Of a DNA stretch of 64,000 nucleotides, positions 2,567 to 63,685 are shown piece after piece. How positions within the stretch are numbered: the first letter of the stretch is position 1; every line of letters starts with the position of its first letter. This stretch comes from Leisingera caerulea DSM 24564. GTDB lineage: Bacteria > Pseudomonadota > Alphaproteobacteria > Rhodobacterales > Rhodobacteraceae. The position numbers were made by a program, and so were the translations under genes. The stretch is from positions 310,001 to 374,000 of the forward strand of contig NZ_AXBI01000020.1 of NCBI RefSeq assembly GCF_000473325.1, given 5' to 3'. A model generated the notes under the pieces. The model saw only the letters and a program-made list of their open reading frames with translations, ran no database searches and was not told where the DNA came from.

Positions 2567-3101
2567 TGCGCGCTCCAGTCTGATTTTAACAGATCGTATT
2601 GAGACCTCCCGAAAGAACAAAGAACGGCCGGCGCGACACAACGGTTTTCATGTGGATATCTGCGAGAAAAGTTGTGATCAGGCATCGCAATTGACGGCTC
2701 AACTGTCCCGCGAGCGCTTCAAGGCAGCCACATCTTCAAAGAATAGCGCCGCAAAACCAGGGCGGCAATTTTTTGCGCAAGCCCCTTCATGCTATGGAGT
2801 TTTCTTGACAACTGGCAAAATCGCTGATGCGAAATACCAAAAAATCAAGTGGCCTCCCGCCAAATCTGGTGGGGAACTGGTTAAAATGCGGATTTCTCAC
2901 CTCAGAGCGCGAAAAATATGTGGACAAAGCGCGAAAATCATGTTGAGAGTTGATCATTGAGCGGCGCATCGAATGCTTCTGACGCAACGGAAAACAGCGC
3001 CTTCGCAGCAAGGGAATGCACGCCCCGGATGGGGCCGTGAGGATCTGACAAATGATTTCCAGACGCTCCGCACAAGCGGGAATAACCGAAAGGAAAACCG
3101 G
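2567..3101. other. 535-bp divergent intergenic region
   Basis: Separates the leftward helicase gene from the rightward ParB-like gene and holds no convincing ORF. It is clearly richer in A/T than the flanks. Two direct copies of GCGCGAAAA lie 22 bp apart at 2907-2916 and 2929-2937, that is about two helical turns; they are variants of the TTTTCGC element found across the window. A TTGACA hexamer at 2805-2810 could be a -35 box, but I see no clear -10 partner. Promoters for both neighbours must lie here. Confidence 0.6.
2907..2937. promoter_or_regulatory. Direct repeat of GCGCGAAAA, 22-bp period
   Basis: GCGCGAAAAATATG and GCGCGAAAATCATG start at 2907 and 2929. The same-face spacing suggests a regulator-binding array controlling the divergent genes. 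Inference only. Confidence 0.4.
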
Positions 3102-4937
3102 ATGACAGCAGCAGACGACATCGTTGAATCTGAGGTTCAGAAAATACCCGAACCATCTGCTGAAGCAGCGAAACTGAGTTTCAAGGTTGAGGAAATTACG
3201 CCGGAACGCGCTTCCGAGATGCTGGAGACGGCTGTAAACCCTCATGAAGACCGCAAGGCTATCGCGACCTATTCGCAGGCCATGGCCAATGGCGCCTGGA
3301 TCCTCAACGGCCAGCCGATCATCTTCGACGAAGACGGTCGCCTCATCGATGGCGTCCAGCGGCTGAATGCCTGTGTGTCCGCAGGTGTCCCCTTCAAGAC
3401 CATCGTGGCCCGCAATGTTCGCGCCGATACACTCCATACGATCGACCAGCACCGGCGGCGTTCGTACCAGGGGGTTCTGGAAAGCCGCGGCGTCCGTCAT
3501 GCGGGCAAAGTCGTCCGCACCATGTCAAAGCTGATCCGCATTGAAAACGGCAGCCTCGGACGTGAAAATCTGCCGATCAGCTGGTCCCGTTACGACCGGG
3601 TTCTGGCTGCAAACCCTGAGCTGCTCGAGGCCTGCGACATCGCCGAGGCAACCAAGGGCAGCATGCTGCACTCCACCGCGCGCCCGGTTCTCGCCTTCAT
3701 GGCGCTGCGCGCTGGCCTGAAAGAGGAGCTCATGAGCTTCCTGCGCGAACTCGGCCCGCATCGCACGGCCGGCCTGGACACCCCGCCGGGTATTTTCTGC
3801 ATGCATCTCAGCATTCTTGAGCAGAAAGATACGTCTGTCCATGTGGACCACGCTCTGGCGCTTGCGACCCTGGCCTTCAACGATCACGTGCAGGGCAAGA
3901 AGGTCAACAAGCACTATGTTTGGGAGGAAGACTACGGGTCCACGCCCATGGACGACGATGGCAAGCCTATCTCCCGCGCGGCTCTGCGGGAGCATGCTCC
4001 GGCCAACCTCGGCCTGCCCCTGGTAGACGGCTATCCGGGCCTGCGCGATGGGCGGTATGATACCAGCTCCACCACTGATGAGTTCGGCGGCCAGATCGAC
4101 GAAGAAATCCAGCACGGAACGCAGACCGATGAGGGTAAGGAGCGCGTCAAGATGATGACGGTGACACCCGCCATGGCTCGCAACTGGCTGACCTTCAACT
4201 CCGGGAACCGCAAGATCCAGAAGAACCACATCGAGGTCATCAAGCGCGACATTCTGAACGGCCACTGGATGCTCAATGCCCAGCCGATCTGTTTCACGAT
4301 GGATCCGGAAGCGCCGGTCAAAGGCAATGCGGCGCCGAAGCCGCGCTTGCTCAATGGTCAGCACCGTCTGCATGCGATCATTGAGGCTGATGTGCCGATC
4401 GAAGTGCCAATCGCAGTCGGCATCCCGGATGAGGCTTTCGCCACATTCGACACCCACGCGAAGCGCACCGTCCGCCGGGCGGGCAACCGGGTCGATGATC
4501 GTGTTCTGGCGGCCGCCGGCAAACTGCAGTGGAAAGAGGATAACAATCTTCCGCTGACCGGCACGGGCAATACGCCTTCCACAACCGAGATCATCAACAC
4601 CTTGAACGATCACCCGGACATGGCAAAAGCCTTCCCGCGCGCCCGCCGCAAGGGCATGACCGATATCGGATCGGCCGGTGTGATGACCTATTTCATTTAC
4701 CGCGTTACGCGGGAGCATGCGGAGTGGGGCGAGGATTTCCTGGACGGCATCGAGTACGGCGCCGATCTGGGCAAGGACAACCCGATCCTCAGCCTGCGCA
4801 ATATGGCTAAGGGCCGCCGCGGCGGGCTGAGCCGGGCCGAAACGCTGACCATGCTCATCGAGCACTGGGAGACCTACAAGGCCTGGCGGAAGAAGAAAGA
4901 CAAGAAAAGCAGCGACAGCCAGCTTAAACTGGTTTGA
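3102..4937 (+). CDS. Tandem ParB/Srx-like domain protein
   Basis: 611 aa. It has two homologous halves of ParB-N/sulfiredoxin-like type. The first (about 25-130) carries ILNGQPIIFDEDG, DGVQR (83-87) and a TIDQHRRRS segment; the second (about 350-465) carries MLNAQPICF, NGQHR (418-422) and TFDTHAKRT. The NGQHR-type motif corresponds to the GxxR nucleotide-binding motif of ParB-like nucleases. The link between the halves is charged and the C-terminus is lysine-rich. ATG 3102 has AGGA upstream; the open frame from 2973 is not needed. Such proteins occur on phages and plasmids; whether this one binds DNA, hydrolyses CTP or cuts DNA is unknown. A strong terminator follows. Confidence 0.85.
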   Translation: MTAADDIVESEVQKIPEPSAEAAKLSFKVEEITPERASEMLETAVNPHEDRKAIATYSQAMANGAWILNGQPIIFDEDGRLIDGVQRLNACVSAGVPFKTIVARNVRADTLHTIDQHRRRSYQGVLESRGVRHAGKVVRTMSKLIRIENGSLGRENLPISWSRYDRVLAANPELLEACDIAEATKGSMLHSTARPVLAFMALRAGLKEELMSFLRELGPHRTAGLDTPPGIFCMHLSILEQKDTSVHVDHALALATLAFNDHVQGKKVNKHYVWEEDYGSTPMDDDGKPISRAALREHAPANLGLPLVDGYPGLRDGRYDTSSTTDEFGGQIDEEIQHGTQTDEGKERVKMMTVTPAMARNWLTFNSGNRKIQKNHIEVIKRDILNGHWMLNAQPICFTMDPEAPVKGNAAPKPRLLNGQHRLHAIIEADVPIEVPIAVGIPDEAFATFDTHAKRTVRRAGNRVDDRVLAAAGKLQWKEDNNLPLTGTGNTPSTTEIINTLNDHPDMAKAFPRARRKGMTDIGSAGVMTYFIYRVTREHAEWGEDFLDGIEYGADLGKDNPILSLRNMAKGRRGGLSRAETLTMLIEHWETYKAWRKKKDKKSSDSQLKLV

Positions 4938-4962
4938 TGCCTCAACACCGGGATGGCATCGA

Positions 4963-4987
4963 GGGCGGGTTCATCCCGCCCTTTTTT
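4963..4987 (+). terminator. Rho-independent terminator after the tandem ParB-like gene
   Basis: GGGCGGG stem (4963-4969), 5-nt loop, CCCGCCC (4975-4981), then six T (4982-4987), 26 nt after the stop codon. Confidence 0.9.
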
Positions 4988-5061
4988 ATTGCCGGGTAGC
5001 GCTCAAGCCAGCACAGGGCGACCAAATGTTTGCGAATTTCTTATTCTGAAGTCTTGCGGAA

Positions 5062-5072
5062 TTTGCGAAAAA
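5062..5072 (-). promoter_or_regulatory. TTTTCGCA-type box before the HicA-like gene
   Basis: Top strand TTTGCGAAAAA, the inverse of the common orientation, 33 nt before the start at 5106. A TATCAT just downstream could serve as a -10 box. Confidence 0.45.
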
Positions 5073-5105: not shown

Positions 5106-6161
5106 ATGCAACATGATCGATCGTTTCTACGAGCCGTCACACACAAGGATTACAGGACCACGCTCATCAAGCTGCTCGATGAGGGCTGGTCTGCAGAGCG
5201 TACCGGGAAGAACCATTTCAAGCTGACACACCCTCTTGCGGGAAAATCCGTCATTGCATCAGGCACCCCCAGTGACCGGCGCGCCTCGGTGAACCTGGTA
5301 GCGGAGTGCAAGCGGGCATTGCGCCTCGGCGCTCAAGTCACCCCTGCCCCGCAACCGGCCCAGACCCTTCTGGAAGAGCTGCGCTCACCGGATGAGAGCT
5401 CGGGCAAGAAACGCAAGAAGAAGGATCGCTGGACCAAGTCGGATCGTGAAATGCGGGATCTACGCAACCGGCGTGCTCTTTCGGCTCCGCAGATGGATGT
5501 AACACCGCCTGTCTTGCCGCCAGTAGTTTGCGAAAAACCATCGCTCAATATCACCCCCGACAGATTGAAAGAGTCCCTCATGCAGCAAGCCGCCCAGAAA
5601 AAGCTCCAGCCCTCCGAAACCGCCCCGGCAACGACCCATACCACGCCGGCTCCCGCGGAACCGGTCGTGATGCCTTTCCCGCAGGACGCGGTGGCGGCTC
5701 CCTCTCCCTCCGCTGGACTGCAGCCGCTGCCAAAGGATCTTCTCGCAATTGCCATGAAGATTGTCCGCGGCGAACTGAACACGATCGAAGTCACTCCGGA
5801 AATGGTGGGCAAGACGATTGTCCTGGACGGTTCGGGCTGGATGATCGACGGCGCGCTCCCTGCCGGGCAGATCGCGGGTGCCGGGCAGAAACCCGCGCGC
5901 GAAATGCCTCCGCATGATAACCGCGCCGCAGCGGATGATCTGATGACGCGCATCAGGAGCGTCTTTGAGGAATTCTCCGCCGAATGGATCTCCGTGGCGC
6001 AGATTGCTGACCTGGTGGACAATCTGAGCGGCTGCAGCAGCCGCGCACATAGCGAAGCCATCCGCCACCGGCTGAAAATCCTCAAGCGTGAGGGGGTCGT
6101 GCGGCAGAAAGATATCGGCGCAGGCGGCCGCAAGTCGTTCCGCTACCGTTTGAAAACCTAA
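5106..6161 (+). CDS. HicA-like N-domain / winged-helix C-domain protein
   Basis: 351 aa. Residues about 10-75 resemble the HicA/dsRBD-like fold, with a helix, then GWSAERTGKNHFKLTHP, matching the G-S/T-H-x-x-(Y/F)-x-L-x-H region of HicA mRNA interferases. The middle (about 80-260) is low-complexity, rich in Pro, Ala and Lys. The C-terminal ~75 residues (from about TRIRSVFEEF, then ISVAQIADLV and REGVVRQKD) look like a winged helix-turn-helix. Start ATG 5106 is chosen because GGAGA precedes it; the track-length frame from 4953 would run through the upstream terminator. It may be a DNA-binding regulator using the HicA-like fold. No HicB partner is adjacent. Confidence 0.8.
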   Translation: MQHDRSFLRAVTHKDYRTTLIKLLDEGWSAERTGKNHFKLTHPLAGKSVIASGTPSDRRASVNLVAECKRALRLGAQVTPAPQPAQTLLEELRSPDESSGKKRKKKDRWTKSDREMRDLRNRRALSAPQMDVTPPVLPPVVCEKPSLNITPDRLKESLMQQAAQKKLQPSETAPATTHTTPAPAEPVVMPFPQDAVAAPSPSAGLQPLPKDLLAIAMKIVRGELNTIEVTPEMVGKTIVLDGSGWMIDGALPAGQIAGAGQKPAREMPPHDNRAAADDLMTRIRSVFEEFSAEWISVAQIADLVDNLSGCSSRAHSEAIRHRLKILKREGVVRQKDIGAGGRKSFRYRLKT

Positions 6162-6184: not shown

Positions 6185-6205
6185 GGCGGCCAATGGCCGC
6201 CTTTT
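6185..6205 (+). terminator. Rho-independent terminator
   Basis: GGCGGCC (6185-6191), AAT loop, GGCCGCC (6195-6201), four T. It lies 23 nt after the HicA-like gene's stop. Confidence 0.85.
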
Positions 6206-6255
6206 CAAATGCAGAGCCCGACCCTCTCGGGAGCAATTCGCAACGAGACTTCAGA

Positions 6256-7188
6256 ATGACCACACTTTACTATCGCCTGTCAGGCACCACCGATCCCGAA
6301 GAACGTCTGGAGGATGCCTGCCTCTCCAAAGCCATGCATGACACCTACGGTTCCAGGATCACTATCCTGCCGCCGGAAGCCAGTCCCCCCGCAGACGCGA
6401 CCGTCTTTGGCCGCGGCCGGCAGCTGGGGTTCGGCACATCTGGATCCGGCCAGGCCAAGCTGGACTATGCCCGTGACCCCGGGTTCCTTTGGGGGATTTC
6501 CAGATCTTTCAAGGTTTGCGGGCTTCAGGAAGCGGAGTTGGAAGTTGCTCGGCTGCATGCTGCCGGCAAGGATGCCTTTGTAAAGGCAATGCAGGAAAAG
6601 CTCATGACGGAACGGGTTCCGCGCGGGATGAGCCTGCACGAGGCCATCGGAGATATGGTGTATTCCTTCATCGAGCGGCCCGACTGCCTTATGGTCCAGG
6701 AGCACGTTGCAATGCGCAATGAGCGCCGCCTGGTATTCGTGGACGGCACGCTGGTCACGCATTCGCCGGTCGCATTTCATCTCACCCCACTGGATCGCTC
6801 CAGACTGGCGGCAGAGACAGGCCGCCCGGCCGAAGAATTGCATTACACAGACCCCGAGAGCCGCACCCCGGTTTGGAATGCTGAGCTTTCCCGGCGGATG
6901 GTCCGCTTTGCTAACGAGGTCGCCGCCCGCTCGCGGTTGCGCACGATGACGATTGATGTGGCGGAGCTGGCAGATGGCAGACTGGAAGTCATCGAATTCA
7001 ATTCGGGATGGCCTGGCAGCTTTGGCCTCTTTGCCTGCGATCCATACGCAATTGCCAAGGCCAGCAGCGCACTCCTGCCCGCGGATCCGGCTGGGGAGGT
7101 CCGGTGCCGGAAAGTGGAGCACCTCACCGCGCCCGCGCCCCGGGAAGCGGCCGCGGATACCGATGCCGATTGGTGCGACGAACCGTAG
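6256..7188 (+). CDS. ATP-grasp-like (R2K-type) protein
   Basis: 310 aa. The C-terminal half has features of ATP-grasp folds of the R2K clade: MVQEHVAMRNERRLVFVDG (an edge strand with Arg, then a VFVDGTLV turn) and a final TIDVAELADGRLEVIEFNS, where D..E.N would coordinate metal and ATP. R2K ATP-grasps ligate amino acids or peptides, and members occur in phages. The N-terminal 100 residues are less conserved, with VFGRGRQLGFGTSGSGQAK possibly a glycine loop. ATG 6256 is used, with weak GAG upstream. It stands 50 nt after a terminator, so it probably has its own promoter. A second ATP-grasp-like gene lies at 33364-34848. Substrate unknown. Confidence 0.6.
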   Translation: MTTLYYRLSGTTDPEERLEDACLSKAMHDTYGSRITILPPEASPPADATVFGRGRQLGFGTSGSGQAKLDYARDPGFLWGISRSFKVCGLQEAELEVARLHAAGKDAFVKAMQEKLMTERVPRGMSLHEAIGDMVYSFIERPDCLMVQEHVAMRNERRLVFVDGTLVTHSPVAFHLTPLDRSRLAAETGRPAEELHYTDPESRTPVWNAELSRRMVRFANEVAARSRLRTMTIDVAELADGRLEVIEFNSGWPGSFGLFACDPYAIAKASSALLPADPAGEVRCRKVEHLTAPAPREAAADTDADWCDEP

Positions 7189-8748: not shown

Positions 8749-8749
8749 A

Positions 8750-9256: not shown

Positions 9257-9264
9257 GATATCTC

Positions 9265-9274
9265 TTTTTCGCAT
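9265..9274 (+). promoter_or_regulatory. TTTTTCGCAT box, MazG-side copy
   Basis: Lies 8 nt upstream of the MazG-like start, reading away from that gene. Confidence 0.5.
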
Positions 9275-9300
9275 TACACGCAGGTGAGGCTATGATATTG

Positions 9301-9310
9301 TTTTTCGCAT
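9301..9310 (+). promoter_or_regulatory. TTTTTCGCAT box before the DUF6575-like gene
   Basis: Reads toward the rightward gene, ending 19 nt before its ATG; preceded by TGATATTG. The short distance would suit a -10-type position. Confidence 0.55.
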
Positions 9311-9329
9311 ATCAACGTGAGAATTTGCA

Positions 9330-9686: not shown

Positions 9687-9741
9687 GTCTGCCGATCCAA
9701 CCGCGCCTCTGCGAAAACAAAAAACCATACAGGCCTCCAGA

Positions 9742-11390: not shown

Positions 11391-11400
11391 TTTTTCGCAT
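11391..11400 (+). promoter_or_regulatory. TTTTTCGCAT box
   Basis: Reads rightward and ends 38 nt before the ATG at 11439; preceded by a T-run (GTTTGTTTTTT). Confidence 0.55.
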
Positions 11401-12764: not shown

Positions 12765-12774
12765 TTTTTCGCAA
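12765..12774 (+). promoter_or_regulatory. TTTTTCGCAA box
   Basis: Variant with final A in the 193-bp gap before 12882; a second, weaker TTTGCGAGG follows at 12780. The 107-nt distance to the start is the longest of the rightward sites. Confidence 0.45.
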
Positions 12775-15097: not shown

Positions 15098-15105
15098 TGC
15101 GAAAA
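15098..15105 (-). promoter_or_regulatory. TGCGAAAA box
   Basis: Inverted copy of the element 24 nt before the start at 15130. Confidence 0.4.
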
Positions 15106-16289: not shown

Positions 16290-16300
16290 TTTTGCGAAAA
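16290..16300 (-). promoter_or_regulatory. Palindromic TTTTGCGAAAA box
   Basis: GATTTT-GCG-AAAATC, an inverted repeat directly after the stop at 16284. Confidence 0.4.
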
Positions 16301-16360: not shown

Positions 16361-16370
16361 TTTTTCGCAT
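16361..16370 (+). promoter_or_regulatory. TTTTTCGCAT box
   Basis: Reads rightward, ending 17 nt before the ATG at 16388. Confidence 0.55.
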
Positions 16371-20691: not shown

Positions 20692-21023
20692 ACACCTCAT
20701 CAAAACACATCAGTGACGAAGCCGTCCTGGCTGTCAGAAAGGTTGTTGCGGCGCTACAGGAGAGAGACTGCCACGGCGCAGTCACTCTCTTGGGGATGGC
20801 CGTGGGACGCAATTCGAGATCAGAGGGCTCCAGCGAAATGATCCTTCGCTGGGCCTCAGAAGGGCCGGATCCGGACGAGCTCTCCCTGTATTGCGGCAAG
20901 GCCATTGTCCGGCCGATGCGCGAGGAGGTCTTCGAAGGCTATATCGATGAAATCGTGTCGGCCTTTGATCTTGTGGCCGCTGAGGCCGCGGTCCGGGAAG
21001 AGCCGGAACTGATGCCAGCCTGA
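20688..21023 (+). CDS. Hypothetical protein
   Basis: 111 aa, start ATGA-overlapped with the previous stop, so translationally coupled. Helical, with AVRKVVAALQERDCHGAVTLLG resembling a winged-helix or dimerisation region. Acidic C-terminus ending PELMPA. Confidence 0.7.
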   Translation: MNTSSKHISDEAVLAVRKVVAALQERDCHGAVTLLGMAVGRNSRSEGSSEMILRWASEGPDPDELSLYCGKAIVRPMREEVFEGYIDEIVSAFDLVAAEAAVREEPELMPA

Positions 21024-21055
21024 TTGCCGCCTTATGATGAGCAAGGGAGCATAGA

Positions 21056-21430
21056 ATGCCTGCAAAACACGACGAGAAGAGCTACGCGCTTCTGACCCCG
21101 GTCGGACCTGACGGCGAAAGCTTTCCCCACGGGCTGACCGCAAGCCGCTGGAGGGTTGCCACGGCCCAGCCGAAAGAAGGGTCACTAACCGAACGCGTTT
21201 TGAGCAATGCGCAAGAGCATGATACCGAAGAGGCCGCGGCCGCCGCCTTCTTTGCGCTGATGCGCACGGGTCTGCCCGGGGTGCTTGATGCGGCGAATTT
21301 GCGTTTGCACGAAGACACGCCCCTGGCCTTCGCGGAGGCGATGACCGACCACGTTCTTGAAGCCTGTGAAGCGGCCGGCGGCGACACCGCCAGGGCTGAT
21401 GACTGGGATAACACAGAGTTTTCGGCTTAG
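21056..21430 (+). CDS. Hypothetical protein
   Basis: 124 aa with AAGGGAG before ATG 21056. Acidic, with EEAAAAAFFALMRTG helix. No recognised domain; same direction and 32 nt after the previous gene. Confidence 0.7.
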   Translation: MPAKHDEKSYALLTPVGPDGESFPHGLTASRWRVATAQPKEGSLTERVLSNAQEHDTEEAAAAAFFALMRTGLPGVLDAANLRLHEDTPLAFAEAMTDHVLEACEAAGGDTARADDWDNTEFSA

Positions 21431-21511
21431 CGGGATGCAATGGTCGATGCATGCCCGGAGTATTCCGGCGAAGATCCGGACAGCGGCCCGCAGATGGGTT
21501 AAGCAGGTCAT

Positions 21512-22033
21512 ATGCGGGCCCAAGACTTCATCTTCCTCGACTTTGAGGCTTCCAGCCTCAGCCCGCAGAGCTGGCCGATTGAGGCTGGCGCCGCCTGGCT
21601 GGATGAGAAGGGGAATGCCTGCAGCTGGTCGAGCCTGATCAGGCCGGCCCCGGCATGGCCGCGGAGCGACTGGGCGGACGCGGCAGAAAATGTGCATGGA
21701 ATCCCGCAGCAAGAGCTGGACCATGCGCCGGAAGCTGGCAGGGCCGCACAGGAACTTGCTGGCCTGCTCGCCGGCCGCACACCCGTTGCCGATGCACCAG
21801 AGTTCGATCAGCGCTGGCTGGAACGTTTGTTCGCGGTCCGGCCCGGATTAGACGTGCCCTTGATCCGGGACTTCAACGACGTTGCGGATGAGGCATTTGA
21901 CGGGCTGGTCCTCGACCGGCTCTACGAGAAGCTTTCCAGGCAGCCGCGGCCGCATAGGGCAGGCCCTGATGCCCTGCGCATGGCGCGCGCTTTCGCCCAT
22001 GCCCGGGCAATCGCCACCGGCCAGCGGGGCTAA
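21512..22033 (+). CDS. DnaQ-like 3'-5' exonuclease (DEDDh)
   Basis: 173 aa. Predicted exonuclease with the four-carboxylate-plus-His site: LDFEASS (D10, E12), a conserved NVHGI loop, APEFDQRW (D99) and PHRAGPDALR (H148, D153). Length fits a stand-alone DEDDh domain such as proofreading epsilon, RNase T or plasmid exonucleases. It could trim DNA or RNA ends. ATG 21512; ribosome site weak. Converges with and slightly overlaps the 22030-22215 gene on the other strand. Confidence 0.85.
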   Translation: MRAQDFIFLDFEASSLSPQSWPIEAGAAWLDEKGNACSWSSLIRPAPAWPRSDWADAAENVHGIPQQELDHAPEAGRAAQELAGLLAGRTPVADAPEFDQRWLERLFAVRPGLDVPLIRDFNDVADEAFDGLVLDRLYEKLSRQPRPHRAGPDALRMARAFAHARAIATGQRG

Positions 22034-22215
22034 ACGGCCCGTAGCTCCTTGGCCATTTCGAGGTAGCCGGCGTAGCCATAATCCCGGTACATCTGTTCAT
22101 ACCAGGCCGCCCAGGGCTCCCGGCGCTCTTCCGGGAAGACGTCGAACCAGGATCCTTTGCGCACGCTGACCTGGCCGTCCGGCATTCGCTTGATTTCGAT
22201 CTTTCTGGCAGCCAT
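22030..22215 (-). CDS. Small hypothetical protein
   Basis: 61 aa, ATG 22215 with GGAGAAG upstream. Begins MAARKIEIKRMPDGQVSVR, then PEERREPWAAWYEQMYRDYG. The 4-nt stop-to-stop overlap with the exonuclease gene is tight packing. Function unknown. Confidence 0.65.
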   Translation of the reverse strand: MAARKIEIKRMPDGQVSVRKGSWFDVFPEERREPWAAWYEQMYRDYGYAGYLEMAKELRAV

Positions 22216-22333
22216 TGATCTTCTCCATAAAAGCCGGCGGGCATTGCCCAAGCAGGTGCATACCGCCAACGCCGCATGACTGATTATGAAATGTGGATTG
22301 CGAGGTTTGCAAGCAAGTCGCCGAATGTTATGA

Positions 22334-22343
22334 TTTGCGAAAA
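22334..22343 (-). promoter_or_regulatory. TTTGCGAAAA box
   Basis: Inverted copy of the element 32 nt before the start at 22376. Confidence 0.4.
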
Positions 22344-22375
22344 TGTAACTGAATAGACAATTGGATCTATACTAT

Positions 22376-22798
22376 ATGAGAGACCATCCCATCCTGGCCC
22401 CTTCGTTATTGGTCCCGATCGGTCTGCTTTTCGGCATTTGCGGAATTATGATCTCTGCGATGATGGAGATGACGCCGCAGGAAAGAGGTTATGAAGGTCT
22501 TCTCAATGCGCATGACCTCCAGGTCGTGCAGCTGGAGAGCCATCAGCTGAACGAGATTGCACCCATGGCAACCGACGGCACGCTTCGCATGCTGCCGGGC
22601 ACCGGCTTTGACCTGCGTGACAACGGTTCCGGCCAGATGGTCGAAAACTATGCGCTTGCCTGCCTGAATCTGCCGGACGGGAAGAAGGCCGCGCAGATGG
22701 TCCGGTTCCGCTCCGGCCGCATGATTGGCGTTAATGACGCCGAACTGCGCGCGCGCATCCGTGCCGATAAACTTTGCGAGACCCGAAGCAAGATCTGA
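22376..22798 (+). CDS. Membrane-anchored hypothetical protein
   Basis: 140 aa from ATG 22376 (a TTG at 22361 is also possible). One N-terminal transmembrane helix at about 8-30 (LVPIGLLFGICGIMISAMM) with the remaining ~105 residues probably periplasmic. No lipobox. Soluble part contains TLRMLPGTGFDLRDNGSG. No family recognised. Confidence 0.7.
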   Translation: MRDHPILAPSLLVPIGLLFGICGIMISAMMEMTPQERGYEGLLNAHDLQVVQLESHQLNEIAPMATDGTLRMLPGTGFDLRDNGSGQMVENYALACLNLPDGKKAAQMVRFRSGRMIGVNDAELRARIRADKLCETRSKI

Positions 22799-22803
22799 CT
22801 TGA

Positions 22804-22842
22804 GGCATGTTTAGCCGTTTTAGAAACACAGCTAAACATGCC
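22804..22842. repeat. Perfect 12-bp inverted repeat
   Basis: GGCATGTTTAGC (22804-22815), 15-nt loop, GCTAAACATGCC (22831-22842), between the membrane protein and the chemotaxis gene. It may end transcription from both sides, but no T-run follows on either strand. It could instead be a protein-binding or recombination site. Confidence 0.65.
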
Positions 22843-22907
22843 CTTATCAGGTCCGGAGGGTTCCGTTAAAATGGCGTCATCCCGATCAGCCTAGGTATCG
22901 CTACCGA

Positions 22908-25205: not shown

Positions 25206-25402
25206 GGCTTTCTGAACAAAGGCTTACCTTCTCACCTTTGACATCTGGATAAATCCGAAGAAGTTAATTTGTCGCACGCGGCTCTGCTCAAGGCCCTTTG
25301 AGCTCTGCCAAGCGGCATGATTCACGTCCGCTAAAACGGGCGGTGAGCCGCCGAAATAGCATCGCTAGCAGGCAGTCTGCGCCCCTTAAGGGGACGCAAG
25401 TG

Positions 25403-26152
25403 CTACATTGAAAAATTGGATTCCGAAGTCGTGCGCGAGCACAAGGCAGAGTCGATCAGTGCGTCATTCACCCAAGTGAAACCGATCTCGATGCGATCGC
25501 CGGGATCTGCCGCACCGGTGTCCTGCTGCATCTGCTGCTCGATCTCAATGTCGTCCACCCCCAGATAGAAGCTGACCTCTCCGCCGGTGCGCAGAATGCA
25601 TCCGGCCGCGCGGTCATCAGGACTGCCAATTGCGCTTCCGGTGCGGATGCTGAGCCCTTCGATGTTCTCGATCGCCGTGAAGATGCTGACCTCCTCCGGA
25701 TAGAGCCTGCGCACCGCCGCGGCCAGCTGCGCCTGCGCATCACTGGGCCGCTTCCCGATGAAAAACAGGCTCACTTCGCTGGTGTCGAGGTGTGCGATAT
25801 GAAACCGGCGCTCACCACAGCGCTGCAGCTCGCCTTCCCAGAACGCCTCTCTGACATCCTCGCCGTGGAGGGGAGGATGGAATGCCTCGCCATCGAGGTA
25901 TTCCACGCCGTATTTCGCAACCACATCAACCGGTTCAAGCCCGGCTGTGCTGCCGCGCGCCAGCGCCACGACAGTGTCATAGACCGGAGAGGCCCCAAAG
26001 GACTTGAGCACGGTGACTTCAACGCCCTCGTTCATGGCCACACCGGTCAGGGTCGCATAGAAGCTTTGCCCCTGCTCCATCCGCTCCTCCATTTCATGGC
26101 TGGGAAGCTCAGCAAAGGCGGCCAGGCCATGCTTGTCTTTGAACCAGGTCAT
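25403..26152 (-). CDS. Hypothetical protein
   Basis: 250 aa from ATG 26152, one base after the upstream gene's stop (TGAGATG), so coupled. Begins MTWFKDKHGLAAFAELPS. Acidic, soluble, alpha/beta, with no recognised domain. The much longer open frame to 26368 overlaps the upstream gene and is rejected. Confidence 0.75.
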   Translation of the reverse strand: MTWFKDKHGLAAFAELPSHEMEERMEQGQSFYATLTGVAMNEGVEVTVLKSFGASPVYDTVVALARGSTAGLEPVDVVAKYGVEYLDGEAFHPPLHGEDVREAFWEGELQRCGERRFHIAHLDTSEVSLFFIGKRPSDAQAQLAAAVRRLYPEEVSIFTAIENIEGLSIRTGSAIGSPDDRAAGCILRTGGEVSFYLGVDDIEIEQQMQQDTGAADPGDRIEIGFTWVNDALIDSALCSRTTSESNFSM

Positions 26153-26153
26153 C

Positions 26154-26825: not shown

Positions 26826-26842
26826 CGCGCACCCCATATGAC

Positions 26843-26850
26843 TTTCGCAT
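26843..26850 (+). promoter_or_regulatory. TTTCGCAT box in a divergent promoter region
   Basis: Short copy in the 73-bp gap, 48 nt before ATG 26899, reading rightward. Confidence 0.4.
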
Positions 26851-26898
26851 TTTCATTAATCAGCATTACCCTGCTCGATATGAATCTAGGAGGGCTGT

Positions 26899-27747: not shown

Positions 27748-27767
27748 TCAGCAGGCAGGAGAAAGAG

Positions 27768-28746: not shown

Positions 28747-28781
28747 CGTCGCGGAGCGCTGAAATGACTTTCGCGATTCAG

Positions 28782-28791
28782 TTTTTCGCAT
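28782..28791 (+). promoter_or_regulatory. TTTTTCGCAT box
   Basis: Reads rightward, ending 30 nt before ATG 28822; a TTTCGCG variant lies 13 nt upstream. Confidence 0.55.
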
Positions 28792-28821
28792 TATCATTTC
28801 CCACAGCATAGGAGGATTGCC

Positions 28822-29004
28822 ATGAACATTCGCTGCGTCACTGTTGGGAAACACATCACTGCTCAGGGAGAGCTTGTGCAGGAGCTTGCCAATGGCGAAG
28901 CGATTGTCCTCTCTGGCCAGCGGCAGGTGACCGGCAAGCTTGTCCCGGCGCTCAACAGCAACATGCCGGACATCATCCGGAGCGCGGAAGCGCCCGCCCC
29001 CTGA
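28822..29004 (+). CDS. Small hypothetical protein
   Basis: 60 aa with AGGAGG and a box of its own. Strand-rich (MNIRCVTVGKHITAQGELV), ends in Ala/Pro. The strong translation signals support a real gene. Function unknown. Confidence 0.7.
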   Translation: MNIRCVTVGKHITAQGELVQELANGEAIVLSGQRQVTGKLVPALNSNMPDIIRSAEAPAP

Positions 29005-29123
29005 GCGCCGTCCAGCCGGGACCGCCATTCCATATTGATTTAGAAAAATTCCTGCCCTAGTCAAAGGTAAGAGAAGGCGCAGCCAGCATCTGCGCCTTGC
29101 TTCTTTTCGCGAAGGAATTTTCC

Positions 29124-29995: not shown

Positions 29996-30000
29996 TCGGC

Positions 30001-31521: not shown

Positions 31522-32201
31522 GCTGCCCTCACCGCTTCACAGACCGCCCGGCACAGGCCGGTGTCAAATTCATCGCATCCGTTGCGGACGCGGCTTTCCA
31601 TATCGATCCAGCCGCCCTCATGCTCCGGCAGCATGGCCAGAACCTCAGCCACATTGTCCGGCCCAAGGCCGCCCGCGTAGCCAAATCGCACCGTCTCACC
31701 GGGAAGATCCGGCCAGGTGGCCGGACTGATCCCGCGGCCGCCCGACGGATCGTAGAGCCAGCTCACCCGCGGATCTTCCGGGAAAGGCCCGCGGCATTGC
31801 AGGATCGGCTCGATCTCCTGACCGCTTTGGCGTCCAGCAGACTTCGCCCAGCTGTGAATGCGGCCGGGGTCAACCGCCTGTGCGGTGTTGATCTGCACCC
31901 GGGCAAACCCGTGCAAGCGGCCGTCGATCTCAGACCACCCCTCCTCAACGATCTGCCGCGCCCAGCCGCCGCAGATATGGGCTGCGAGCCGAAGGCCGCT
32001 CCTCTGGATAGCTTCGATCCACTCCTGCCTTGGGAAACGGGCGGTCCCTTCGCGGGACGGCGAGAACAGAATGGCAAATTCCACCGCGTGGCTCTCAGCC
32101 AGCGCCAAAAGATCCCCGATATCGGTTTTGTCGTCAGCCCCGGTGAAGGTGATGAATTCCGGCTTGAACACAAGGGCATCCTCGAAATTACTTTTTCGCA
32201 T
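31518..32201 (-). CDS. TrpF-like TIM-barrel protein
   Basis: 228 aa as drawn. Matches phosphoribosylanthranilate isomerase in plan: first strand FITFTGADDKTDIGDL in place of CGITRPEDA, middle LRLAAHICGGW, then YDPSGGRGISP, RFGYAGGLGPDNV and a final DMESRVRNGCDEFD, all typical of TrpF barrels. The TrpF catalytic Cys of CGI is replaced by Thr/Gly, so the activity has probably changed. No other trp gene is present. The start is uncertain: ATG 32201 lies inside a TTTTTCGCAT box without a ribosome site, and GTG 32171 (GAGG upstream) may be correct. Confidence 0.7.
   Translation of the reverse strand: MRKSNFEDALVFKPEFITFTGADDKTDIGDLLALAESHAVEFAILFSPSREGTARFPRQEWIEAIQRSGLRLAAHICGGWARQIVEEGWSEIDGRLHGFARVQINTAQAVDPGRIHSWAKSAGRQSGQEIEPILQCRGPFPEDPRVSWLYDPSGGRGISPATWPDLPGETVRFGYAGGLGPDNVAEVLAMLPEHEGGWIDMESRVRNGCDEFDTGLCRAVCEAVRAA
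32192..32201 (+). promoter_or_regulatory. TTTTTCGCAT box, first of a pair
   Basis: Overlaps the possible ATG of the TrpF-like gene, favouring the downstream GTG start. Confidence 0.5.
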
Positions 32202-32232: not shown

Positions 32233-32242
32233 TTTTTCGCAT
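32233..32242 (+). promoter_or_regulatory. TTTTTCGCAT box, second of a pair
   Basis: 41 bp from its partner, in the divergent gap of the TrpF-like and 32424 genes. Confidence 0.5.
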
Positions 32243-34864: not shown

Positions 34865-34896
34865 TTTTCGCAGAGCCGCTGCGGACTCTGCGAAAA
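34865..34896. repeat. Inverted repeat made of two TTTTCGCA boxes
   Basis: TTTTCGCAGAG (34865-34875) and CTCTGCGAAAA (34886-34896) with a 10-nt spacer, between the stop at 34909 and the start at 34848. It can be a hairpin ending in T on either strand or a two-site operator. Confidence 0.65.
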
Positions 34897-35750: not shown

Positions 35751-35760
35751 TTTTTCGCAT
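35751..35760 (+). promoter_or_regulatory. TTTTTCGCAT box
   Basis: In the 208-bp gap upstream of the leftward 35574 gene, read away from it. On the bottom strand a TTGACG follows 5 nt later and could be its -35 box, placing the element upstream like an operator or UP element. Confidence 0.45.
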
Positions 35761-39142: not shown

Positions 39143-39153
39143 TTTTGCGAAAA
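39143..39153 (-). promoter_or_regulatory. Palindromic TTTTGCGAAAA box
   Basis: 41 nt before the RNA-repair start; reads TTTTCGCAAAA toward it on the bottom strand. Confidence 0.5.
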
Positions 39154-41801: not shown

Positions 41802-42514
41802 GGCTCCATCCCCGCATCCTCTGACGGGCGGGCGCCAATGCGGTCGATAAAGCCGGGGCGCAGCTCATCGAGGTAGGCGATCGCAAACGGCAGCTGATCC
41901 GCTTCGATCGCTGTGGTGTGGGCAATGCCTTGAGAGTTCAGTCGCTCAAGGTTGGCATCATATGCCAACGGATTGTGGGACCAATTGATCACCTCTTCCG
42001 GATCCGCCTCACCGACCTTTTCGGTGAAGTCCCATCCCCGCTCGATGCAGTATGCGATGTCCTCCTCGTCGGCGACAGCAAACCATTCGCGCATGTCGAG
42101 CTGGCCTGCGAACTCTCCGTTATCAAGGCGCAGCCGGGCCAGAACGGGGCGCCCGAAAATATCTTCCGGGCGGGACCAGAGCCCATCAGGCCCAGGGTTC
42201 AGGTTTCGCTCTGCAATGACGCTGGAATGGAGCGTGTCCTCCAGATCGATATCCTGCGCATCAACCTCAACCCAGCCGCCGGCCGCCTTGCGGATGACAT
42301 TGGAACGGGTTGCGGACCTCAAAACCCAACGATCCTCGACCTCGGCGCCAAGCGGTGACCCGAAGATCTCTTTCAGCTTGTCCGGCTGCGCTTCCACACG
42401 GTCCGCCATCTCCCGCAGGGCCGCAGCGGCTTTCTCCGCAGTGAATCCGACGCCGCCGCGGTCAATCATGCCCTTGACCTCAAGCAGCATTGCGTAGTGA
42501 AGCTTGTAACTCAT
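41798..42514 (-). CDS. Hypothetical protein
   Basis: 238 aa from ATG 42514 with TAAGGA upstream. Helical N-terminus (AEKAAAALREMADRVEAQP), then beta segments including RWVLRSATRSNVIRKAAGG. Ends DAGMEP, where the last codons also form the ribosome site and ATG of the next gene. No family recognised. Confidence 0.75.
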   Translation of the reverse strand: MSYKLHYAMLLEVKGMIDRGGVGFTAEKAAAALREMADRVEAQPDKLKEIFGSPLGAEVEDRWVLRSATRSNVIRKAAGGWVEVDAQDIDLEDTLHSSVIAERNLNPGPDGLWSRPEDIFGRPVLARLRLDNGEFAGQLDMREWFAVADEEDIAYCIERGWDFTEKVGEADPEEVINWSHNPLAYDANLERLNSQGIAHTTAIEADQLPFAIAYLDELRPGFIDRIGARPSEDAGMEP

Positions 42515-42522
42515 TTTCGCAT
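42514..42522 (+). promoter_or_regulatory. TTTTCGCAT box at a gene start
   Basis: Fills the spacer between the ribosome site and ATG 42514 inside an operon, so it may be coincidental here. Confidence 0.3.
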
Positions 42523-42525: not shown

Positions 42526-43698
42526 TTAGCTCATGTCCATTTGCGGGGCGCTCTCAAGATGAAGCAGATCCTGGTATCTCTCGAGGTTGTCAGGGTGAAC
42601 TTTCCGCCCCGCCTCATATGCCGCGACAACCTCATCGCGATGAAAGGCCCGGCGGGCCTCATATCCTGAGCGCGAAAAGTGTGACGGCATGAAAAGACCG
42701 AGCGCCTCCTGGCGGTCGGCCTTATGCATCGCCTTGCCAAGGCCCCGCCCCCGCCAGGCCTCCTCGACGTAGGGTGTGCCCCTGACGCACCCTCCTGCAA
42801 GCTTGAGGGTCCCCGCATCAAGGATCGCAAGGCGAGCCATCATGAGGTCGGGTGCCTGGGCGAAAAACCGGAAATCCGGATAGCCAGGAACCTGGAATTC
42901 CCGAACGTCTGCGAAAATCAAAGGGCCGCCGTCGCGGAATTCTTGATAGAGATCCAGATCCATCCGCATGCGGAGCAATCCATCCCGCGTGAAGTCGATC
43001 ATTTCCTGCTCTGCAGGCCCGAAGTTTTGGTCTTCAACGATAATGGGATGAGCACGGCCGATGAATCTATCGAGCGGCATTTCGGCAACCGGAACGCGCG
43101 CCTTCAGGGCATTGACATAGCCAGCGTTCTGCCAGCCCAGTCCCTTGCGTTTGACCAGAAGATCCAGATCCTTCCACCCATCAATTCTGACCAGCAGATT
43201 GTCCGGGTGACCAGCTGGCGAAAGGTTGGCATTATCCTTGAACATTGGGGTGCTCAAACCAATCTGGATGCCGCCGGTGGTATGCGCCAATGGATGGCAG
43301 AGGTGCTGGAAAATACCTGCCGCCGTATCTTCGATCCGGGCCTGAAAGGCGGCCATATCGATGATGCCCTCATCATCTCCGCAGGACAGCAATGCTTGAA
43401 CAAGCTTCGATTTGACCTGATGGCCGGCAACCGCGTTGAGGATGGTCTTGGCGCCATCCGTCAAATCACCGCCCGCGGCAAAGCGGTTCCAGTCTTCAGC
43501 CTCCGGGAACTCCCGCCCCTCCAGGTTCGGAATTTTGCCGAGCTTGCGCGCGCTGCGCGCAGCGAGCGCGGCCTCGACATCCACCGCAATCCGGTCGCGA
43601 AGGCCATTAATGGCCGCAAAACCCTCGGCCAGAGGGATTTTGGCAGCAAGCGCGTCGAGCGGCGAGAGAAACTCGTAGATGCGTTTAATGGTAATCAT
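42526..43698 (-). CDS. Protein with C-terminal GNAT-like domain
   Basis: 390 aa from ATG 43698, one base after the upstream stop (TGAGATG). The first ~220 residues are unassigned. The last ~130 resemble a GNAT acetyltransferase: LAGGCVRGTPYVEEA strand, then acetyl-CoA loop RGRGLGKAMH (316-325). This would give an acetyl-CoA-dependent N-acyl transfer; substrate unknown. Toxin-type GNATs acetylate aminoacyl-tRNA, but this protein is much larger than those. Confidence 0.75.
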   Translation of the reverse strand: MITIKRIYEFLSPLDALAAKIPLAEGFAAINGLRDRIAVDVEAALAARSARKLGKIPNLEGREFPEAEDWNRFAAGGDLTDGAKTILNAVAGHQVKSKLVQALLSCGDDEGIIDMAAFQARIEDTAAGIFQHLCHPLAHTTGGIQIGLSTPMFKDNANLSPAGHPDNLLVRIDGWKDLDLLVKRKGLGWQNAGYVNALKARVPVAEMPLDRFIGRAHPIIVEDQNFGPAEQEMIDFTRDGLLRMRMDLDLYQEFRDGGPLIFADVREFQVPGYPDFRFFAQAPDLMMARLAILDAGTLKLAGGCVRGTPYVEEAWRGRGLGKAMHKADRQEALGLFMPSHFSRSGYEARRAFHRDEVVAAYEAGRKVHPDNLERYQDLLHLESAPQMDMS

Positions 43699-43699
43699 C

Positions 43700-44878
43700 T
43701 CAAATTTCCGGACATTCATCATCAGCGCTGCGGGCGACTGCAAGACGCTCAGCCAGCTCGCCTGTTTCCATCCGCACCACGCGGAACCGGCCGGTCTCCG
43801 CCAGCGCGTCTGCCAGATCGATCATGTCCCGCACCCCGGCCATTGCGGCTTCGTCCACAAGACCCTCAAGGTTTTGCCGGATCAGAGATGCCAGATTGCG
43901 ATCCGTGCCGGAGGCAAAAGCCATAGGCGCCATCGGATCCTGGAGGGCATCATCAAAAAGGACTGCGAGATGCCTCAGCTGCCCGCCATAGGGCAGAGCT
44001 GCGATGCCGTCAGCGATGACCACTGAGGGAGCCTGCCCGCTCAGCATCATTTCCTGCAAGAGGTCTGAGGCCTGTTGAAATGCAAAGGCCGGACTGCTGC
44101 CGTATGTGAGGAGGATCGGCTGGCCGGCGTTTTCGATCATCGCAATGGAGATGTTCTGCAAAGGCCGCATTAGGGCACCCGCGGGAACCGTGCCGATGAT
44201 CTCCTTCAGCCAGTCATTTCCGGAACGGACCATGCAGGATGCGCAGCCGCAACCCGGCCCATGGGCCGCCGCATCACGCTTCAAGAGCACCTGGCTGTCG
44301 ACGGACCAATTCCGCTCACGGCCATACCCGGCAATCTTGCCAATCACGTCCTCACCCTGAAGGCCATTCAGGTCAATAAAGTAAAAACGTTCGCGCAGCC
44401 CGTCAGCCAGCGTATCCGCGTTTGCGCCGACGTGGATTTCAGTACCCCCTGCAGTCATGACCATGAAGGCTGCGGACGCCACCTGCCCTTCACCCAACCC
44501 GTGCCGGCTCAGGACGGCCCGTGTGATTTGGGCATGCTTCGGCAGCGCATCCACCCAGGCGGCCATCTGATCTTCATCCAACGCCCAGAGGAAACCGCTT
44601 TCGCCGCCGATCCGCACATGCGCAACAGCGAGGCTGTCCATGACGTCAGCAGTCCGCTCCGGGTCATGCACCGGGTTGTCCCGCAGCATCTCCGCAGCCG
44701 GAACAAAGTCCTGCACGGTGATGTCATAGCCCGAAGTCTCGTTCGCATAGTGGCGCATACGGCAGTTCAATGTTGCAATCCCTGGCGTCGCCCCGGCCGG
44801 GTACATTGGCGCATAGAGATCATGAGCCTGACGCAGCGAGCCGTCCGGCAAACGATATGCAGCGACACCCGGGATCAT
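43700..44878 (-). CDS. Hypothetical protein, first gene of leftward operon
   Basis: 392 aa from ATG 44878, preceded by AAGGGGA. An upstream in-frame ATG at 44974 would place two element boxes inside the gene. Alpha/beta with GPGCGCASC (three closely spaced Cys, possible metal site) near the middle, and long helical C-terminal part. No recognised domain. Ends DDECPEI. Confidence 0.75.
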   Translation of the reverse strand: MIPGVAAYRLPDGSLRQAHDLYAPMYPAGATPGIATLNCRMRHYANETSGYDITVQDFVPAAEMLRDNPVHDPERTADVMDSLAVAHVRIGGESGFLWALDEDQMAAWVDALPKHAQITRAVLSRHGLGEGQVASAAFMVMTAGGTEIHVGANADTLADGLRERFYFIDLNGLQGEDVIGKIAGYGRERNWSVDSQVLLKRDAAAHGPGCGCASCMVRSGNDWLKEIIGTVPAGALMRPLQNISIAMIENAGQPILLTYGSSPAFAFQQASDLLQEMMLSGQAPSVVIADGIAALPYGGQLRHLAVLFDDALQDPMAPMAFASGTDRNLASLIRQNLEGLVDEAAMAGVRDMIDLADALAETGRFRVVRMETGELAERLAVARSADDECPEI

Positions 44879-44921
44879 GTGGTCCCCTTGCCCCATCTTG
44901 CTTTCGCAAGACGTTCTGGCA

Positions 44922-44931
44922 TTTTTCGCAG
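44922..44931 (+). promoter_or_regulatory. TTTTTCGCAG box
   Basis: 43 nt upstream of ATG 44878, with a CTTTCGCAAG at 44901-44910 between them. Confidence 0.5.
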
Positions 44932-45031
44932 ACACTTCCGCAAGCGCGGGAGGGAACGGCAGGAAAGTAAGCATCGCATCGCCTCGAAATTATTCTTGAT
45001 GAGCATAGGAAACGGACCGGAAAATCAAAAG

Positions 45032-45039
45032 TGCGAAAA
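45032..45039 (-). promoter_or_regulatory. TGCGAAAA box
   Basis: Faces the leftward operon in the divergent gap. Confidence 0.45.
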
Positions 45040-45063: not shown

Positions 45064-45073
45064 TTTTTCGCAT
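45064..45073 (+). promoter_or_regulatory. TTTTTCGCAT box with 8-T run
   Basis: CTTGATTA then TTTTTTTTCGCATACT, facing the rightward gene starting at 45126; 25 nt from the opposing copy. Confidence 0.55.
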
Positions 45074-54827: not shown

Positions 54828-54837
54828 TTTTTCGCAG
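54828..54837 (+). promoter_or_regulatory. TTTTTCGCAG box
   Basis: In the gap upstream of the leftward C5 methyltransferase. Confidence 0.45.
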
Positions 54838-54887: not shown

Positions 54888-54895
54888 TTTTCGCA
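54888..54895 (+). promoter_or_regulatory. TTTTCGCA box
   Basis: Second copy in the same gap, directly after the ParB-like stop. Confidence 0.4.
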
Positions 54896-55784: not shown

Positions 55785-55794
55785 TTTTTCGCAT
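55785..55794 (+). promoter_or_regulatory. TTTTTCGCAT box
   Basis: 55 nt before the ParB-like start at 55729, read away from it. Confidence 0.45.
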
Positions 55795-57636: not shown

Positions 57637-57646
57637 TTTGCGAAAA
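57637..57646 (-). promoter_or_regulatory. TTTGCGAAAA box facing left
   Basis: Reads TTTTCGCAAA toward the leftward gene starting at 57586. Confidence 0.5.
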
Positions 57647-57677: not shown

Positions 57678-57687
57678 TTTTTCGCAT
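57678..57687 (+). promoter_or_regulatory. TTTTTCGCAT box facing right, 8-T run
   Basis: Preceded by CTTGATTAATA and eight T; faces the gene starting at 57758. Confidence 0.55.
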
Positions 57688-58993: not shown

Positions 58994-59003
58994 TTTTTCG
59001 CAG
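58994..59003 (+). promoter_or_regulatory. TTTTTCGCAG box
   Basis: 18 nt upstream of the L,D-transpeptidase start, read away from it. Confidence 0.45.
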
Positions 59004-62500: not shown

Positions 62501-62510
62501 TTTTTCGCAT
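62501..62510 (+). promoter_or_regulatory. TTTTTCGCAT box
   Basis: Reads rightward toward the HD nucleotidase gene; a TTTTTCGCCA variant follows at 62531-62540. Confidence 0.55.
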
Positions 62511-63263: not shown

Positions 63264-63292
63264 GTGCGCCGGGGCTCCAGGAAGACAAGAAA

Positions 63293-63320
63293 GGGCGGCT
63301 GAGCCGCCCTTCTGTTTTTT
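63293..63320. terminator. Rho-independent terminator between convergent genes
   Basis: GGGCGGC (63293-63299), TGA loop, GCCGCCC (63303-63309), then TTCTGTTTTTT. Serves the HD nucleotidase gene; the stop of the opposite gene overlaps its T-run. Confidence 0.85.
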
Positions 63321-63561
63321 ACTCCACGCCGCCGGCGCGCTTGTAGGCGTCCAGAAGGAACTCCTTCTCATCGCGCTTGTCCTTGTCCTCGCGCTTCATC
63401 TTGACGACTTTCTCGACCAGCGCGGCATCCAGACCGGCGCCCTTGCACTCGGCCTTCCATTCCTTTTTGCGGCCCGCCAGCTCTTCCGCCTCATCCAGAA
63501 GGCCCGCACAGCGATCCATATGGGAGCGGATCAGTTCTTCGGAAACGTTGGGGTCGCTCAT
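63319..63561 (-). CDS. GapR-like (DUF2312) nucleoid-associated protein
   Basis: 80 aa from ATG 63561 with AGGAGA upstream. Helical: EELIRSHMDRCAGLLDEAEE, KKEWKAECKGAGLDA, KVVKMKREDKDKRDEKEFLL. This follows the GapR pattern I-x2-I-E-R-L-E-E-E-K, A-K-G-x-G-(F/L)-D-x-K, (I/V)(I/V)-R-(L/M)-R-K-x-D-x2-(E/K)R. GapR binds AT-rich, overtwisted DNA in alphaproteobacteria; DUF2312 proteins also occur in phages. It could coat the AT-rich T-tract boxes found across this replicon, but that is inference. Confidence 0.8.
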   Translation of the reverse strand: MSDPNVSEELIRSHMDRCAGLLDEAEELAGRKKEWKAECKGAGLDAALVEKVVKMKREDKDKRDEKEFLLDAYKRAGGVE

Positions 63562-63676
63562 ATCAATCTCCTGTTCTTCTGAGCTCGGCAGCAATCGCCT
63601 TCGGTGTTGAGTGCCACCAGGCATGTGCGCAATGTCCGCTTCAGCCTGGCAGCGCCTCAAGCGAGGCTGCATCATA

Positions 63677-63685
63677 TTTTCGCAT
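63677..63685 (+). promoter_or_regulatory. TTTTCGCAT box
   Basis: In the 137-bp gap upstream of the GapR-like gene, read away from it. Confidence 0.45.

Follow-up and report, generated by a model that had tools for sequence, protein, structure and literature searches.

In cluster A mycobacteriophages such as L5 and TipsytheTRex, a repressor that works as a monomer and contacts DNA through two binding domains acts on stoperators, i.e., 13–14-bp asymmetric, dispersed sites that are oriented with transcription, and reversal of a site results in a loss of repression (PMC9283540; PMC6550527). Moreover, coliphage T1 and the Citrobacter phage Stevie carry 22-bp asymmetric, mostly intergenic repeats in 16–20 copies and in one orientation relative to transcription, the role of which is called unknown by the source (PMC4319613). 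Here, we describe a dispersed motif with the core TTTTCGCA on contig C5 (564,457 bp) of Leisingera caerulea DSM 24564, the genome of which comprises nine contigs with 5.34 Mb. The window, i.e., the whole stretch of 64,000 nt that was analysed, covers bases 310,001–374,000 of C5, and from its gene content we describe C5 as a giant plasmid, putatively conjugative, that carries transfer genes of the Dot/Icm type. Judged from sequence comparison, the sites form a network that is specific to the element, conserved in its family and located at the 5′ ends of genes; their orientation is free upstream of genes and one-way within them. The explanation we prefer, and which we consider about evenly balanced between right and wrong, is that the motif represents the ~17-bp asymmetric binding site of a single megaplasmid-encoded protein, a 147-amino-acid XRE protein, that would control transcription element-wide as operator and stoperator. 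Among the matches listed in searches of openly licensed PMC text, no description of this motif or of a similar plasmid system was found.

Abundance, structure and conservation of the motif

In the window TTTTCGCA occurs 33 times (22 copies on the top and 11 on the bottom strand), compared to 3.16 copies on average, and never more than 10, in 100 shuffles that preserved the dinucleotides. An earlier note on this DNA had counted 28 copies (20 top, 8 bottom) and had estimated about one by chance; both values are too low, while all coordinates it gave as examples are exact. The motif is a property of the C5 replicon: C5 carries 281 copies in 564 kb, i.e., an exact site roughly every 2 kb, compared to 110 copies in the 4.78 Mb of the remaining eight contigs, which makes its density on C5 ~20-fold higher than in the remainder of the genome. 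Within C5, 74 copies are found in 445,575 bp of genes and 206–207 in 119 kb of gaps. The 8-mer is thus equally common neither in the DNA outside C5 (the earlier note spoke of gaps of the host chromosome) nor in the coding DNA of the replicon, the two findings which that note had named as speaking against its own observation. The reversed control word is present in 8 copies on C5, and of the 840 different 8-mers that its letters can form, TTTTCGCA ranks first with its 281 copies, the median being 8. The shuffles and this ranking rule out chance or composition as the source of the motif. Genes were called with our own Markov caller, for which reason start codons are approximate; RNA genes were left unmasked, and the tRNA array of C5 is therefore counted as gaps or overlapped by gene calls.

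Alignment of the 281 C5 copies revealed a full motif of ~17 bp, WYnnWTTTTCGCAWAYY, in which clear information is confined to the stretch between about −7 and +11 relative to the core. The flanks show preferences for W at −5 (88% A/T), Y at −4, W at −1, W at +8, A/T at +9 and Y at +10 and +11. The motif is asymmetric, and neither dyad symmetry nor a second conserved block or half-site at a fixed distance was present in the aligned copies. For sites beyond the exact copies a matrix trained on C5 was used that allows for core variation; it reports 394 sites on C5, up to 8% of which are expected to be false at the threshold applied, with TTTTCACA, TATTCGCA and ATTTCGCA as the commonest core variants. 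Regarding the 5–8 T which according to the earlier note often precede the box, the T runs of the 33 window copies, counted with the four Ts of the core, are four long in 13 copies, five in 12, six in six and eight in two. Same-orientation spacings of 45 and 53 bp recur among site pairs; helically phased pairs were considered and dismissed, as no clear periodicity was seen.

To compare the motif across the family, three elements were used: C5, a contig of 446,545 bp from Gemmobacter caeni and two contigs of 148 and 137 kb from Defluviimonas salinarum, with primases 38% (Gemmobacter) and 56% (Defluviimonas) identical to that of C5. The Defluviimonas element is partly covered by its two contigs, as this genome holds further motif copies elsewhere. 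Reciprocal best hits connect 214 of the 528 called C5 genes with one relative or more, and 96 of these genes with both, with 100 of the 137 kb of the second Defluviimonas contig entering the comparison. In these diverged elements TTTTCGCA is again the most over-represented 8-mer, with 179 copies vs. 4.6 expected on the Gemmobacter contig and 66 vs. 2.9 and 51 vs. 2.8 on the two Defluviimonas contigs, and the flanking preferences are similar in all three elements. Outside of this group, no copy was found in a 23-kb stretch of a 43-kb contig from a Boseongicola metagenome-assembled genome, the primase of which is 35% identical. The motif is not general to megaplasmids encoding a strawberry-notch helicase, since single stretches of distant members contain one copy (44 kb of Bosea pANAM02) and none (43.5 kb of M. 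extorquens AM1).

The sites are scattered along the entire element (C5, 281 exact copies in 564 kb; Gemmobacter, 179 in 446 kb), the exception being a single copy-free stretch of 33 kb, C5:108,923–141,562, the longest on C5 and located outside the window. In the 20 kb of it that were searched, an IS66 transposase, a purine permease and a sulfate permease are encoded, and ~16% of these 20 kb is ~87% identical to Leisingera plasmids among the records listed. Due to the transposase, the permease genes and the identity to Leisingera plasmids, this stretch is probably captured cargo.

Position and orientation of the sites relative to genes

Gaps of at least 40 nt on C5 contain a site in 63 of 72 cases if divergent, in 105 of 207 if tandem and in 6 of 52 if convergent, and the other three contigs show the same order with occupancies of 71–88, 48–57 and 14–33%, respectively. 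The sites are concentrated within ~160 nt upstream of start codons, and about two in five genes have one within 200 nt upstream (237 of 527 on C5; 169 of 421, 66 of 134 and 46 of 122 on the other contigs). By its location this distribution is that of a promoter-region regulator. Moreover, the presence of an upstream site is shared by orthologs whose upstream gaps reach 60 nt on C5 and on the relative alike: the numbers for both, C5 only, the other only and neither are 45/7/5/9 for Gemmobacter and 47/7/6/11 for Defluviimonas (odds ratios 11.6 and 12.3).

In tallies of gap orientation and distance, in which a site in a divergent gap may be counted once for each flanking gene, divergent gaps contain 118 vs. 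119 sites in the two orientations with median distances of 105 and 104 nt, and tandem gaps contain 203 reverse and 126 forward sites (n = 329). For matrix sites pooled over the three elements the ratio of TTTTCGCA to TGCGAAAA, read relative to the downstream gene, is 94:103 at 71–130 nt upstream, 103:95 at 36–70 nt and 51:98 at 0–35 nt, and inside genes it falls to 7:163.

These distributions bear on the possibility that the motif is the promoter element of a sigma factor, which we regard as unlikely. An RpoH-like sigma factor is indeed encoded by all three elements (C5:42856–43707, plus strand; Gemmobacter contig 326584–327441; Defluviimonas contig 27927–28862) as reciprocal best hits of 35–41% identity, its best NCBIfam match scoring 235.8 bits and thus below the cut-off of 315, and in-gene copies read in the TGCGAAAA direction could be co-directional internal promoters. 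We regard this sigma factor as a reasonable third candidate for the protein that reads the motif. However, the motif is a single contiguous block without a second element at fixed spacing, the orientations and median distances in divergent gaps are balanced, and 126 of the 329 tandem-gap sites point the opposite way. Furthermore, the distances to the starts are broad, and copies at 12–30 nt from a start would leave almost no leader. The earlier note had placed the box often 17–50 nt before rightward genes, which applies to a minority: four of eleven top-strand copies in front of rightward genes end 18–39 nt from the called start, three lie at 53–71 and four at 85–220 nt. Among the three functions which that note had offered, a repressor or a nucleoid protein is compatible with the free orientation in divergent gaps, the mixed one in tandem gaps and the single block, while a sigma factor fits poorly.

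The in-gene copies were compared to synonymous-codon nulls. On C5, 71 exact copies are antisense (null 8.4) and three sense (null 5.3; 60 shuffles), in Gemmobacter 47 are antisense (null 2.2) and two sense (null 0.6; 40 shuffles per contig), and the Defluviimonas contigs show antisense to sense ratios of 8:1 and 4:0. Codon usage is ruled out as their source by these shuffles, and the antisense copies, being far above the null, are more than just tolerated. The orientation tracks the gene on either strand, with 30:2 antisense to sense copies in plus-strand and 41:1 in minus-strand genes of C5, which rules out replication polarity as set by FtsK-orienting polar sequences (KOPS) or Chi. A replication-polarity signal of this type, or a signal acting on the RNA level such as a terminator, decay or pairing site, would account for the one-way orientation in genes; we rate both together as very improbable, as occupancy is highest in the divergent gaps, where transcription is probably low and orientation is free, and as an Rfam search of the window returned no match at gathering scores. 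Orientation is thus unconstrained in DNA that is probably untranscribed and nearly absolute in transcribed DNA.

The in-gene sites lie outside of AT-rich patches (flank AT content 0.358 vs. 0.361 for their genes; 76 sites). TATAAT-like matches occur near them at 0.030 per 56 nt on each strand (168 stretches) compared to 0.020 and 0.019 on the two strands at 3303 random in-gene stretches. Since this slight increase is equal on both strands, the idea that the in-gene sites serve to block cryptic antisense promoters was rejected.

By the approximate gene calls, 28 of the 33 window copies are located in gaps and five in genes; the earlier note had noticed a single in-gene copy (5529). The in-gene cores at 938..945 (+) and 2339..2346 (+) in gene 290–2566(−), at 5529..5536 (−) in gene 5106–6161(+) and at 44923..44930 (+) in gene 43700–44974(−) are antisense, and the core at 42910..42917 (−) in gene 42526–43722(−) is one of the three sense copies on C5. 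Divergent gaps contain the cores at 9266..9273 (+) and 9302..9309 (+), both in gap 9257–9329, and those at 11392..11399 (+), 22336..22343 (−), 32193..32200 (+), 32234..32241 (+), 45032..45039 (−), 45065..45072 (+), 57639..57646 (−), 57679..57686 (+) and 62502..62509 (+). In tandem gaps the cores at 5064..5071, 9710..9717, 15098..15105 and 16293..16300 (all −) are reverse and those at 12766..12773, 16362..16369 and 28783..28790 (all +) forward. In tandem gaps of minus-strand genes the cores at 34865..34872, 35752..35759, 54829..54836, 54888..54895, 55786..55793, 58995..59002 and 63677..63684 (all +) and, in a short gap of this type, 42514..42521 (+) are reverse, and those at 34889..34896 and 39146..39153 (both −) are forward.

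A candidate binding protein and its possible mode of action

Of the 96 genes common to all three elements by reciprocal best hits, 30 with C5 proteins of 81–369 amino acids were scanned against Pfam. Only one, a protein of 147 amino acids encoded at C5:5791–6234 on the minus strand and outside the window, contains a regulator-type helix-turn-helix (HTH) domain (PF13560, HTH_31; E 8.1e-9, above the curated cut-off). Its predicted structure shows an XRE-like helical domain (predicted local distance difference test, pLDDT, 90), preceded by a less certain coil with the sequence RGRP; the scan reported no match to the AT-hook family, though this core is present. A profile search of solved structures (E up to 0.01) returned six sequences named XRE or helix-turn-helix regulators and none named as a mycobacteriophage repressor, and the Foldseek list for the model contains the XRE-type regulators ClgR, C.EcoT38I, DdrO and P22 c2.

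The distribution of this protein parallels that of the motif. In the three motif-bearing genomes its profile has one match each below E 1e-53, located on the motif-bearing contig, while matches elsewhere are at E 9.5e-6 or worse, and there is no match in the Boseongicola genome. A search of 5.8 billion proteins listed at least 21 family members, the named ones including proteins on a 519-kb Epibacterium, a 148-kb Defluviimonas and a 115-kb Cereibacter contig; the listing is not exhaustive, as the Gemmobacter copy is absent by name. Among 385 genomes sampled from the class and 394 from the family, with the best 9–10 first-look candidates scored in most listed genomes, its own genome was the sole carrier, i.e., the other 384 and 393 contained no match up to E 1e-20. 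Furthermore, the HTH profile found no relative among viral contigs and the HTH protein no match in the plasmid collection. In 21 aligned sequences, which are 44–65% identical to the C5 protein, R28, G29 and P31 of RGRP are invariant and R30 is conserved in at least 90%; within the segment RKLSQYETTCYPPG, R76, Y81, E82, T84, C85, Y86, P87, P88 and G89 are invariant. From its co-occurrence with the motif and the matching conservation we infer that this XRE/AT-hook protein is the best candidate for the binder. On all three elements its gene has a motif site 42–177 nt upstream; autoregulation is only weakly indicated, because in C5 and Defluviimonas a divergent gene borders the same gap and the sites are nearer to it.

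The earlier note had also suggested a GapR-like protein as binder. It is encoded in the window at 63319–63561 (PF10073, 51 bits) and is present on the Gemmobacter element as well; its Defluviimonas copies lie on contigs C34 and C38, outside the two motif-rich contigs examined, making it a weaker candidate.

According to the explanation we prefer, the HTH domain of the 147-amino-acid protein would read CGCA and its AT-hook arm the T-tract side, the protein acting as a monomer on an asymmetric site. At promoters, a bound site in either orientation would act as an operator and block initiation. A polymerase meeting the site in the TGCGAAAA direction within a leader, a short gap or a gene would be halted or slowed as at a stoperator. 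As an outcome, much of the plasmid might be kept quiet.

Several observations weigh against this explanation. XRE proteins usually bind palindromes as dimers, and no second half-site as in such palindromes was seen at the motif. Foldseek gave no match below E 0.001 for the model (best 0.02), and the location of the C5 and Defluviimonas sites nearer to the gene divergent from that of the candidate adds to this. Shared upstream sites agree in position and orientation in 14 cases in Gemmobacter (shuffle mean 8.1, maximum 16) and in 16 in Defluviimonas (mean 7.7, maximum 16), which is above the shuffle mean and not above the shuffle maximum. In-gene sites are unconserved in position (0 of 33 compared to Gemmobacter and 2 of 27 compared to Defluviimonas); this turnover would suit a diffuse role better than precise stops. 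Scattered in-gene sites that turn over while their orientation is strictly kept, together with the density of exact sites over the replicon, favour the serious alternative of an architectural binder, i.e., an element-specific nucleoid or replicon-marking protein, for which the in-gene orientation would be the one letting polymerase pass. We consider this possible though doubtful, as the sites accumulate at the 5′ ends of genes and seldom occur in convergent gaps, as for a transcription regulator, and as upstream-site presence is conserved between orthologs. Finally, 16 of the 30 scanned proteins have no Pfam match, and another binder could hide among these or among the 66 common genes outside of the scan. 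It is improbable in our view that such a different element protein, e.g., a conserved one without a known family, fulfils the function proposed here, since the 147-amino-acid protein is the only one of the 30 with a DNA-reading domain of regulator type, and the conservation of its putative DNA-reading residues comes close to that of the motif.

If the binding protein acts as an operator- and stoperator-type repressor, this would help to explain how cells tolerate mobile elements of 0.5 Mb. The in-gene orientation rule is a direct prediction on encounters of the protein with RNA polymerase, and the motif would serve as an easy sequence marker by which further plasmids of this family could be recognised and captured cargo picked out.

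The carrier plasmids and comparison with described systems

The description of C5 as a conjugative plasmid is based on predicted transfer genes for DotI/IcmL, DotD, a TcpQ-domain protein, a DotM-domain protein and DotA/TraY. Moreover, C5 encodes three TerD and one TerB, a strawberry-notch helicase, two PcfJ, a topoisomerase I, an NAD-dependent ligase, a UvrD-type helicase, a ribonucleotide reductase and FlhA. Because of the latter and a methyl-accepting chemotaxis protein at 22908–25205 of the window, C5 may hold motility genes of its own. The C-terminal part of the C5 primase has relatives of 64% identity on the 519-kb Epibacterium and the 148-kb Defluviimonas contigs (among 75 matches); the Epibacterium and Cereibacter relatives are known as protein records on contigs. 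The strawberry-notch helicase (C5:299181–304319, 1712 amino acids) is 55% identical in Gemmobacter and 75% in Defluviimonas, is distantly shared with Bosea and Methylorubrum megaplasmids and is a possible marker for giant plasmids. C5 has 35 predicted tRNA genes, 31 of which form one 8-kb array (C5:246,645–254,725), and a predicted tmRNA (C5:376,662–377,069). In Defluviimonas contig C6, 36 tRNA genes lie within 13 kb (20,934–33,964), and this array and that of C5 cover most amino acids; to our knowledge, such dense tRNA arrays are unusual for plasmids. Further window genes encode an R2K-clade ATP-grasp protein (6193–7188; PF14243, PF18299) and, at 36505–39009, a fused kinase-phosphatase-RNA ligase of RNA-repair type (AAA_33, Metallophos, RNA_lig_T4_1). 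The latter has phage relatives of ~30% identity, and a search of the genome-contig collection gave no relatives of this RNA ligase/polynucleotide kinase protein.

Among described systems, H-NS-type plasmid nucleoid proteins and xenogeneic silencers bind dispersed sites element-wide. The system described here shares with them the element-wide sites and a probable silencing, and it differs in its specific ~17-bp site and in in-gene sites outside of AT-rich patches. The regulators ClgR, C.EcoT38I, DdrO and P22 c2, with which the 147-amino-acid protein shares the HTH fold, each have one or few operators, which are usually palindromic. With the T4 MotA boxes, KOPS and Chi the motif has in common to be short and dispersed; unlike in these, its polarity follows genes and not replication, and it lies outside of a fixed-spacing promoter.

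The repeats of T1 and Stevie are like the motif asymmetric, mostly intergenic and oriented and occur in phages of Gram-negative bacteria, but they have another sequence and far fewer copies and belong to lytic phages. The cluster A stoperators, the nearest functional parallel, resemble the motif in being asymmetric sites without dyad, dispersed in promoters and short intergenic spaces. Their mainly single orientation relative to transcription has a counterpart here inside genes and partly in the last 35 nt before starts, and none further upstream. Moreover, the small cluster A repressor with an HTH domain and a second DNA-contacting part has its candidate counterpart here in the 147-amino-acid protein. 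However, cluster A members are temperate mycobacteriophages, while C5 is a putative conjugative megaplasmid with DotI, DotD, DotM and DotA/TraY in another host group. The site measures 17 instead of 13–14 bp and is present in 281 exact or ~390 matrix copies instead of 20–30, and the candidate is an XRE protein with an AT-hook core. Furthermore, the orientation rule is absent upstream of genes here, and the elongation block is proposed. The system is separate from the mycobacteriophage family, though of the same kind. Tentatively, and with clearly less confidence than in the binding site as such, we suggest that a family of giant conjugative plasmids has its own polar transcription-silencing code, in which one XRE/AT-hook protein would use 200–400 sites per element as operators and one-way stoperators, which would have originated independently from mycobacteriophage immunity and which could confer immunity against related incoming plasmids. 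With ~10 times more sites than in the phage systems and on giant conjugative plasmids, the principle would, if true, reach beyond phages.

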